Positions 4,592 to 7,991 of a stretch of DNA of 64,000 nt are shown piece by piece. The translations under genes were made by a program, and so were the position numbers. The notes under the pieces are model-generated. The model had not been told where the DNA came from, ran no database searches, and saw nothing but the letters and a program-made list of their open reading frames with translations. Every line of letters begins with the position of its first letter. Position 1 is the stretch's first letter. The stretch comes from an uncultured bacterium (lineage in GTDB: Bacteria; Fidelibacterota; Marinisomatia; Marinisomatales; UBA1611), in the NCBI GenBank assembly GCA_905478065.1, contig CAJQGZ010000019.1, positions 1-64,000 on the forward strand. Reading direction: 5' to 3'.

Positions 4592-5293
4592 ATGCCAATA
4601 ACTAGACTTGTTGAATTACAAGATATCGATTCTCAATTAGAAGACTTGAATAGCTTATTAGGAGATTTACCTAAGATGGTTGAGGAATTGAACGAAAAAG
4701 AAAATAGTATAAAAAATAAAATTGAAGTAGATAAAATAAACTTAAAAGACATCAACCTGAATACGAGTAAGTCTGAAACTGCAAATGTAGAGATACAAAG
4801 CAAAATAGATAAACTCACTGACCAGCTATTTTTGGTTACGAACAATAAACAATATGATGCATTAACGAACGAAATTGAGCACCTAAAAGCACAAAAAGAA
4901 GAACATGAAACGCTATTAATTACGTATTTAGAAGACAAAGAAACATTAGAAGAAAATGTAAAAAATAACGAGTCTTCTTTAGAAGAATTAAAAACTGATT
5001 TAGAGTCAAGACGAAATAAATTAGATAAAGCGCTATCAGAAACATCTGAAGAAAAAAAATCTCTGGAGAACTCTCGCCAAAAACAAATTGTAGAAATTGA
5101 TGAAAAGATTATGTTTACTTATAACAAAGTAATTTCAGCCAGGTCTGGTGTTGCTGTTGTCCCTCTTTCTGGAGGTGCTTGTGGTGGTTGTGGTGCCGCA
5201 TTGCCCCCGCAAAGATCATCAGAAATTAGAGCTGGAGATTTACACAACTGTGATAGCTGTGGGCGGTTTGTCTATAGTAAAAAAATTAATTGA
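4592..5293 (+). CDS. Coiled-coil protein with C4 zinc ribbon (CT398/CdsZ-like)
   Basis: A 233-residue protein. Residues of about 25-180 form a long charged coiled coil. The C-terminus carries a zinc ribbon with two cysteine pairs, GGACGGCG and HNCDSCGR (about residues 195-224). This is the zf-RING_7 / CT398 family, whose chlamydial member binds the type III secretion and RpoN machinery. Its general role is not settled. The gene has an AAGGGGA ribosome binding site a few bases before ATG. Its stop codon lies inside the RNase P RNA P1 helix. The pairing of this family with rnpB is a recurring neighbourhood in bacteria, as I recall it. Confidence 0.88.
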   Translation: MPITRLVELQDIDSQLEDLNSLLGDLPKMVEELNEKENSIKNKIEVDKINLKDINLNTSKSETANVEIQSKIDKLTDQLFLVTNNKQYDALTNEIEHLKAQKEEHETLLITYLEDKETLEENVKNNESSLEELKTDLESRRNKLDKALSETSEEKKSLENSRQKQIVEIDEKIMFTYNKVISARSGVAVVPLSGGACGGCGAALPPQRSSEIRAGDLHNCDSCGRFVYSKKIN

Positions 5294-5649
5294 GTTAGTT
5301 GGATGATTGCTCCATCAAAAATAAATTTTAATGGAGAGGAAAGTCCGGGCACCGCAGAACATAAAGCCTTTTAACAAAAGGAATCCGTAAGGATATGGAA
5401 AGTGCAGCAGAAAATAAACCGCCTGTCAAAAGGCAAGGGTGAAAAGGTGGTGTAAGAGACCACCAGTCTTTCTTTAAATAGATTGAGCTTGTAAACCCCT
5501 TTAGGTGCAAGGTTGAATAGTTTCAAAGATGTTGTTCGCATCACTTGATGAACGGGTAAATCGCTTCAGCTTAATGGCAACATTAAGCGCAGACAAATGA
5601 TCATCTATCCCTTTTTGGGTGGACAGGACTCGGCTTATAGACTAACTCA
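5291..5649 (+). ncRNA. rnpB: RNase P RNA (bacterial type A)
   Basis: This is the catalytic RNA of RNase P, which removes tRNA 5' leaders. The universally conserved 5' block GAGGAAAGTCCGGGC (P4, from about 5336) is present. So are AGAGACCACCAG (about 5455), TGTAAACCCC, GCAAGGTTGAATAG and the 3' block ACAGGACTCGGCTTATAGAC (5624-5643) that pairs with the 5' block. The ends are set by the terminal P1 helix: TGAGTTAGT at 5291-5299 is exactly complementary to ACTAACTCA at 5641-5649. The gene sits directly between the zinc-ribbon gene and pgpH, and no separate promoter or U-tract terminator is obvious. The mature RNA is therefore probably cut from a longer transcript. Confidence 0.96.
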
Positions 5650-5675
5650 AAATTTAATTTAATGAGAGAGCATTT

Positions 5676-7991
5676 ATGGAGAAAAACAACTTACCATTTT
5701 CTTTTTTAAACAAAGAAATTCAATTTTTTCAACAAAACTTCAAACAAGTTGGAATTATTTTCCTGCTAGTGTTGTTTATTTCATTTTTATTCCCTGGTGG
5801 AGAAACTCTACAATATTCTTACAAGATAAATGATATTACTAGGGAGCCAATAATAGCGCCCTTTACTTTTCCTATTTTGAAAACATTCGAAAATTATGAA
5901 AAGGATAAAAAAGAAGAAAAAAAATCTGTTGCTTATATTTTTAACAGAAAACAAGAAGTTGTAAACAGCCAATTAACTGAATTAAATGATTTTTTTGGTT
6001 CATTAAATGATTTAAGATCGTCAAAGTGGAGATTTAATCAATCAAAGCAACTATACTATGAAAGGAAGTACCATGCTACCGCTGAGAAAGCAAAAAATGA
6101 ATTCATAGCAGATAGTGCAAGTCTAGAGATGCTTTCAAATGATTTTCAAAGTAAATACCCATTTACGGCTTTAAAAGATTCATCATGGAATAAATATTTA
6201 ACAACAAATGAAAATCCAAGAAAACTAAAAGATTGGGTTTTACATAAAAATATTGTTAGTCAAATTTGTAAAAATAGATGGTCTGAAGGTATTTATGATA
6301 TATCAATAGATAGCATAATAAGTAATAAAGTTAAGATTAATCAAGGTGATGTCCCTATTTTAGCAGAAAAACTTGATTTTAACAGTTTAGAAGTAGCGTG
6401 GATAAAAGCAAAAGAAGAGTATATAAATAAGATCTCCGGTGAAGACGTTTTTTTTGATATTGGATATGATATAATTGTTGAGCATATGAAACCGAATTTA
6501 TTATTTAATAGAAAATTAACAGTATCAAATCAAAGGCTTAATATAAAGCAAGTTCCTAGAAGTAAAGGAGTTGTTTTAGAAAACGAGTTAATTGTTGATG
6601 CAAACATTAGAATAACAGAAGGTGTCCTCCAAAAATTAAATTCACTATCTTTTTCAATCGGGCAATTGAATCAGGATAAGCCTCTAGATAATATCTGGAA
6701 CTACTTAGGTAGAATTATTCTTATATCTATAGTAATCTCTCTGTTCTTTACATTTTTGTATATGTATAGAATAGATGTCTTTTCTGATTGGAAAATGATT
6801 TTACTGATGTCTATTATAATGTTAATTCAAATGCTTCTAGCGTATTTAATTATTAATTATTTTCAATTCTCAGAACATTTAGTTCCTGTTTCTGTAGGGG
6901 CACTAACATTGACTATTTTATTTGATGCTAGAATTGGGTTTATGTCGACAGTTGCTGTATCAATTTTAGTAGGTCTAATGATGGGCCAAAATATTGATTT
7001 TGTTATTTCATCTTTGTTTATTTCAACGGTTGGGGTTTATAACATCCGTGAATTGCGTAAAAGAAGCCAGCTTTTTACAACGATGTTTGCATTGATTGGG
7101 GCCAGCATTATTGTGATAATTGCTATTGGATTATTTAAAGAACACTCCTGGGCAAAAATTATTTTTGATTTGCAAATATTAACATTAAATAGTTTTTTAG
7201 CTCCAATTGTTACTTATGGTTTAATAGGTTTAACTGAAATGGTATTTGAAGTCACCACCGATTTAACTTTAATTGAATTACTCGATTACGATAGGCCATT
7301 ATTAAAAAGAGCCCAAAGAGAAACTAATGGAACCTTTAATCATAGCATTGTCGTTGGAAATTTAGCGGAAGCTTGTGCTACCGCGATTGGAGCACATTCA
7401 TTATTATGCAGGGTTGGAGCCTATTATCATGACATAGGTAAGATGATAAAACCAGATTACTTTATTGAAAACCAATATGCTGCTGATAATAAACATGATG
7501 TATTAAAACCAACAATGAGTGCAAAAATTATTAGAAGTCATGTTAATAACGGGTTGCAACTTGCCAAAGAGTATGGTTTGCCTAAAATCGTTTCTGATTT
7601 CATTCCAATGCACCACGGCACGACTAGAGTAGAATACTTTTATAGGCAAGCAATAGAAGCTGTTGATGGAGACGAATCAAAAATTGATGAAAGCCAATTC
7701 AGGTATCCTGGTCCAAAACCAAATACTAAAGAAACGGGAATTTTAATGATATGTGAAGCTATTGAGGCGGCAGTACGTTCAATTAAAAACCCAGATATTA
7801 TGAAAATCGAAAATATGATTGATAAAATAATAAAGCAAAGAGTTGATGATGGTCAGTTAAGTGATTGTCCATTAACACTAAATGAGTTAGATAAAATTAA
7901 AGGTACTGTTGATGGCAATACAGGAATGCTTCATGTTTTAAGGGGTATTTATCACATTCGAATAGAATATCCAGATGATAAAAACCTTTAA
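5676..7991 (+). CDS. PgpH-type 7TM-HD c-di-AMP phosphodiesterase
   Basis: A 771-residue membrane protein of the 7TMR-HD family (PgpH/YqfF). There is one N-terminal membrane segment (about residues 22-40), then an extracytoplasmic 7TMR-HDED domain (about 40-340). A bundle of about seven membrane helices follows (about 342-530), and a cytosolic HD phosphohydrolase domain completes the protein. HD motif residues are visible as FNHSIVVGN, YYHDIGKM (about 583-590) and PMHHGTTRVEYFY (about 643-655). Characterised members hydrolyse cyclic di-AMP, so this protein probably controls osmolyte and wall homeostasis. It is followed by ybeY after 17 bases, a common yqfF-ybeY arrangement. A GAGAG ribosome binding site precedes ATG. 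Confidence 0.92.
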   Translation: MEKNNLPFSFLNKEIQFFQQNFKQVGIIFLLVLFISFLFPGGETLQYSYKINDITREPIIAPFTFPILKTFENYEKDKKEEKKSVAYIFNRKQEVVNSQLTELNDFFGSLNDLRSSKWRFNQSKQLYYERKYHATAEKAKNEFIADSASLEMLSNDFQSKYPFTALKDSSWNKYLTTNENPRKLKDWVLHKNIVSQICKNRWSEGIYDISIDSIISNKVKINQGDVPILAEKLDFNSLEVAWIKAKEEYINKISGEDVFFDIGYDIIVEHMKPNLLFNRKLTVSNQRLNIKQVPRSKGVVLENELIVDANIRITEGVLQKLNSLSFSIGQLNQDKPLDNIWNYLGRIILISIVISLFFTFLYMYRIDVFSDWKMILLMSIIMLIQMLLAYLIINYFQFSEHLVPVSVGALTLTILFDARIGFMSTVAVSILVGLMMGQNIDFVISSLFISTVGVYNIRELRKRSQLFTTMFALIGASIIVIIAIGLFKEHSWAKIIFDLQILTLNSFLAPIVTYGLIGLTEMVFEVTTDLTLIELLDYDRPLLKRAQRETNGTFNHSIVVGNLAEACATAIGAHSLLCRVGAYYHDIGKMIKPDYFIENQYAADNKHDVLKPTMSAKIIRSHVNNGLQLAKEYGLPKIVSDFIPMHHGTTRVEYFYRQAIEAVDGDESKIDESQFRYPGPKPNTKETGILMICEAIEAAVRSIKNPDIMKIENMIDKIIKQRVDDGQLSDCPLTLNELDKIKGTVDGNTGMLHVLRGIYHIRIEYPDDKNL

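Follow-up and report, generated by a model that had tools for sequence, protein, structure and literature searches.

The accessible part of PMC3372290 describes, in Borrelia burgdorferi B31, a CT398/FlgZ (DUF164) gene that is followed by rnpB. In E. coli, the mRNA-derived small RNA MalH contains a stop codon, as stated in the accessible part of PMC8081044. In the titles and abstract openings of the open-access literature, we found no description of a stop codon located in the P1 helix of RNase P RNA. RNase P is not mentioned in PMC8469502, and no 5' end of rnpB was found in the accessible part of PMC10319736.

Here we describe such a stop codon in a stretch of 64,000 nucleotides from an uncultured bacterium (called the window below, at its full length) and compare the junction across the phylum. 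In such an overlap, bases are both coding and paired in an essential catalytic RNA, and one stretch of DNA stands under two selections. The overlap also raises the question of how RNase P RNA acquires its 5' end without an ordinary spacer, and what the fate of the mRNA is.

Structure of the locus

The upstream gene lies on the forward strand at positions 4592–5293 and encodes a CT398-type coiled-coil/zinc-ribbon protein of 233 amino acids (COG1579/DUF164 kind). Its translation matches the Pfam families CT398_CC (PF24481, 1.3e-13) and Zn_ribbon_9 (PF02591, 1.5e-10), both above the cut-offs, and its relatives in the PDB are CT398, MSMEG_4306 and HP0958 (4ilo, 5y05 and 3na7). The Pfam matches and the PDB relatives agree on the CT398/FlgZ layout, a coiled-coil hairpin followed by a C4 zinc ribbon.

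The downstream gene is rnpB on the same strand (5291–5653). The cmscan match to RF00010 covers the complete model (1–367) with an E-value of 2.9e-86 and 267.8 bits against a gathering score of 100, and position 5291 is model position 1. The full-model covariance score and a P1 helix built from the 5' and 3' ends assign the RNA to class A. The 5' strand of P1 is TGAGTTAGT (5291–5299) and the 3' strand is ACTAACTCA (5641–5649); they are exact reverse complements and form nine of nine pairs in the cmscan structure line. The pairing is far beyond what chance would give, since this helix is the P1 of a family match over the full model and its pairs covary strongly among relatives.

The TGA stop codon of the zinc-ribbon gene (5291–5293) forms bases 1–3 of P1, and the observation of a stop codon inside P1 is thus confirmed. 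The preliminary description had stated both the position of the stop and the perfect pairing, and it was right on both; the covariance-model search for exact ends that it proposed places the RNA at 5291–5653, end to end on RF00010. One further P1 pair follows in register outside the model, T5290–A5650. In the minimum-energy fold of 5270–5675, positions 5283–5289 pair with 5654–5660 by seven A-U pairs beyond a 3-nt bulge, and from this fold an outward P1 extension within the last codons (5283–5290), which is A+T-rich, is a candidate.

P1 is followed after 26 nt by the start of a 7TM-HD (PgpH-like) gene (5676–7991, forward strand), with no terminator-like site found in between. The gene after rnpB varies, being 7TM-HD in the window and recJ in loci L171, L170 and L004. 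Long ORFs tile the 64 kb window. The genome of the window has 67 matches to the type IX secretion tail, and thus probably belongs to the FCB group.

Position of the stop codon among relatives

We surveyed 160 loci from 159 genomes, mostly the best-scoring among the matches listed for 206 genomes of the phylum. The zinc-ribbon stop could be placed for 152 of the 160 loci; of the other eight, four have short upstream sequence and four gave no call. The stop overlaps P1 in 24 of the 152, namely the window and 23 loci of a sister order, including the chimeric-looking G210. Elsewhere it lies upstream of P1, by 0–4 nt in 19 loci, 5–20 nt in 41, 21–100 nt in 56 and more than 100 nt in 12. Short distances occur in other families, with 1–10 nt in f16, 2–15 nt in f23 and 10–11 nt in f25.

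Within its own order the window is the only overlap. The preliminary description had proposed a comparison of the junction in relatives and counted a spacer at this place against its reading. Such a spacer is found throughout the rest of the window's order, where every other placed stop lies 1–693 nt upstream of P1, and the comparison bears out the shared stop in the sister order alone (23/23). One genome, G053, has two RNase P RNA matches (L009 and L031) with a zinc-ribbon gene before each, perhaps from a mixed assembly.

The sister order belongs to the same phylum and comprises families f26–f29 with 13 genera and 23 genomes (loci L108 and L170–L191). In all 23 loci the zinc-ribbon stop falls at −1 to +2 relative to the modelled RNA; one of these loci has only 166 nt of upstream sequence, and G210 is also counted. 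The zinc-ribbon proteins share 45–98 per cent identity (median 57; 21 sequences), thus the junction has stayed in place across much divergence. RF00010 matches at full length in the four sister-order loci scanned, as in the window. Compared with the window's order, P1 has one additional pair, and when the helices are aligned from the inside (by eye), UGA begins the helix in both orders. The stop is TGA in 20 of the 23 loci and TAA in three. In the genomes with TAA, pair 1 is A-U instead of the G-C of the others, and one row has G-U. The downstream gene starts 9–62 nt after P1 and is recJ in both of the two loci tested.

Some further features of these loci were noticed. The 5' half of G210 (L183) is that of f27 (G201), its 3' half fits f29 and its P1 pairing is incomplete, so that it looks chimeric. 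In f29 (L171, L172 and L174–L188) the acidic tail of the protein is mostly encoded by GAGGAGGAA, about 9–17 nt before P1. It is similar to a ribosome-binding sequence, 8 nt ahead of the stop, and might slow termination. Among the Glu codons of the sister order, GAG accounts for 32 of 57 in the last six positions and for 156 of 707 in the body. A general test of codon conservation near the tail gave nothing clear in this order.

Pairing beyond the modelled helix

The pairing of P1 continues outward into the coding sequence of the sister order. At −1, T-A is present in 19 of 20 unique rows. At −2, which is the third position of the final sense codon, there are 12 C-G, three A-T and one G-C, with four unpaired; the 16 paired rows compare with 10.8 in shuffles and were matched by 1 of 1000 shuffles. 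When the partner was slid by one to three bases, the controls at −2 gave 0, 1, 1 and 1 against 13 of 17. At −4, A-T occurs in eight rows and T-A in six, and six are unpaired. G201, G206 and G207 are without most pairs at −2 to −4. G210 was included in the tables of covariation and stop position and excluded from the tests of protein identity, promoters and slid partners.

Bases past the far end of the RNA covary with the final sense codon, third base included, which makes coding nucleotides part of the helix. In the sister order, covariation thus shows the stop codon and, at minimum, the final base of the codon before it as paired parts of P1.

Outward pairing is also seen in the window's order. 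Among 65 unique rows, positions −1 to −4 are paired in 57, 46, 47 and 42, compared with 37, 30, 37 and 30 in shuffles. This table excludes family f15, in which outward P1 pairing was not found; with f15 included, the values are 59, 48, 50 and 46 of 75 against about 38, 32, 37 and 33 for mispaired loci. The window itself has in-register outward pairing at −1 only. In a few f8 loci (L028, L041, L056, L061 and L064), P1 can be lengthened by 12–14 outward pairs past the Rfam boundary, which would suffice for a processing stem. In f23 (L142, L157, L158 and L159), a TAG stop 3 nt before P1 seems, by eye, to be part of the outward extension.

Since the covariation in relatives extends the helix outward past the Rfam boundary, the mature RNA of the window probably begins at 5291 or slightly earlier, by a few bases. 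The same covariation suggests that the public RF00010 model sets the P1 boundary too short for this phylum.

Origin of the overlap in the window's species

Compared with its two nearest relatives, the window lacks one G at 5284. In the blastn alignment with L085, this is the sole gap in 6693 aligned bases; with L086, the gap at 5284 is joined by one other, which lies outside genes. The codon rows place the missing G within an A-rich stretch. The placed stops of the genus mates are 1, 1, 5, 5 and 10 nt upstream of P1. For G006, whose upstream sequence spans just 65 nt, the stop was read by eye at +10 upstream of P1.

TGA forms the first bases of the RNA in 49 of the 79 loci from the window's order and in 25 of the 27 from its family, and the first 16 bases of the window's RNase P RNA contain stops in all three frames. 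The loss of one G near 5284 moved the frame from a TAA to the UGA that P1 already carried. As shown by this comparison of sequences, the overlap in the window's species would have arisen recently, by a single-base loss near 5284.

An assembly or sequencing error could give the same picture, the true sequence having a TAA before P1. The species is represented by one genome, the gap is a single base adjoining an A run, and all six genus mates, five of them placed and G006 by eye, have the stop upstream. Against this, the gap stands alone in the alignment with L085 and the window is tiled by long ORFs; the lack of any other frame-breaking gap favours a real change. The sister order shows, moreover, that a stop in P1 is viable. 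We therefore consider an error improbable.

Promoter-like elements

Fixed-distance elements are present upstream of rnpB in several families of the window's order. In f8, where the stops lie 35 to 693 nt upstream, GTAAnTT is found at −25 or −26 in 15 of 22 loci. In f15, a TATAAT-like box is at −13 in all 11 loci. In f20, of the window's class, GTAAnTT is at −14 or −15 in four of seven. Overall, GTAAnTT occurs within 70 nt in 36 of 159 loci against 8.3 in shuffled sequence. In ten f1 loci it coincides, by eye, with Val-Asn-stop or Val-Ser-stop codons. In the window's family, the overlap of GTAAnTT with Val-Asn-stop coding means that it is not independent evidence, as the coding alone could explain it. 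In f1 (L073, L070, L065 and others), the promoter-like GTAAATTA is at the same time the Val-Asn-stop codons of the zinc-ribbon gene, about −25 from P1.

For the window's order, these fixed-distance elements suggest that RNase P RNA has a promoter of its own. The RNA may then start by transcription, and a cut of the mRNA would be unneeded. In the sister order, a shared promoter element at a fixed place was not found (best place 7 of 22), and for this order an RNA processed out of a longer transcript is no less likely than an own start.

The window has a weak sigma-70-like candidate for rnpB inside the ORF (GTGATA, 17, TATAGT; 5250–5278, forward strand; 9 of 12 matches), and such sites are no commoner in this region than in shuffles. 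Two related proposals were rejected. For a promoter conserved across the genus in the terminal codons, the final 33 codons show no drop in synonymous variation, with 16 of 19 columns compared to 87 of 117 elsewhere. For TATAGT (5273–5278) as a fixed promoter, the distance to P1 varies by eye among genus mates, because TATAGT encodes Tyr-Ser.

Discussion

The safest reading of the locus is that an ORF and a catalytic RNA share bases under mutual constraint. Our best explanation as a whole, spacer shrinkage and a shared-base overlap acting as mutual constraint, with the RNA probably made from its own start in the window's order, is given a probability of about 0.68. In this explanation, the zinc-ribbon gene and rnpB are end-to-end neighbours in the phylum, with a spacer that has repeatedly shrunk to nothing. 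P1 commonly begins with UGA, and a reading frame that enters P1 would stop at the first bases of the RNA. The overlap would be recent in the window's species, through the loss of one base, whereas it is old and fixed in the sister order. The 5' end of the RNA would be at the UGA or a few bases before it, and in the window's order the promoter would probably be located within the 3' end of the zinc-ribbon gene or close to it. Most likely, the pairing acts as a mutual constraint and not as a dedicated switch. A ribosome terminating on a read-through transcript would merely delay P1 on that single molecule.

Alternatively, and in line with the preliminary description, RNase P RNA might be cut from the zinc-ribbon mRNA, by which the stop is removed, and terminating ribosomes might compete with P1 folding and couple the two products. 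In its favour, the stop of the sister order is in P1 in 23/23, a fixed promoter element was not found there, and the closely following downstream genes make 3' processing likely; the outward extension of P1 is also like a processing stem. In the window's order, however, the fixed-distance promoter-like elements suggest independent starts, and the stop lies outside P1 in many relatives, in which no selection for coupling is seen. On balance we regard this coupling as unlikely. A stronger version, in which maturation of the RNA splits the stop codon in the sister order and, independently, in the window's species, so that the production of each ribozyme leaves its host mRNA as a non-stop message, appears very unlikely. 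If it were true, zinc-ribbon translation and ribozyme production would be mutually exclusive per molecule, giving a built-in balance between an RNA enzyme and the neighbouring protein.

A stop in P1 might also simply lock both genes, with its conservation across the sister order reflecting this lock-in and no function. The overlap forbids insertions and deletions in both genes, and constraint acts on the protein tail as well as on the helix. An earlier nonsense change would free the junction, and none is present in 23 genomes with a median protein identity of 57 per cent (21 proteins). This argument is weak, because the tail itself may be needed. We hold such a frozen accident to be a serious contender, with slightly less than an even chance of being right.

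Relation to described systems

The RNA of the window is that of class A RNase P RNA (RF00010), a likeness that rests on the full-length match here and in the four sister-order loci. It differs from the family model in that P1 in many members of the phylum extends past the model ends into spacer or coding sequence. Borrelia burgdorferi B31 has the same two genes in the same order as the window (PMC3372290); the accessible part of that source notes the neighbourhood and does not mention an overlap of stop and P1. As in MalH, a functional RNA here takes in the tail of a reading frame together with the stop codon. In the accessible part of PMC8081044, however, MalH is a cleavage product of an mRNA 3' end, whereas in the window the downstream RNA is a catalytic RNA gene and the stop lies in its closing helix.
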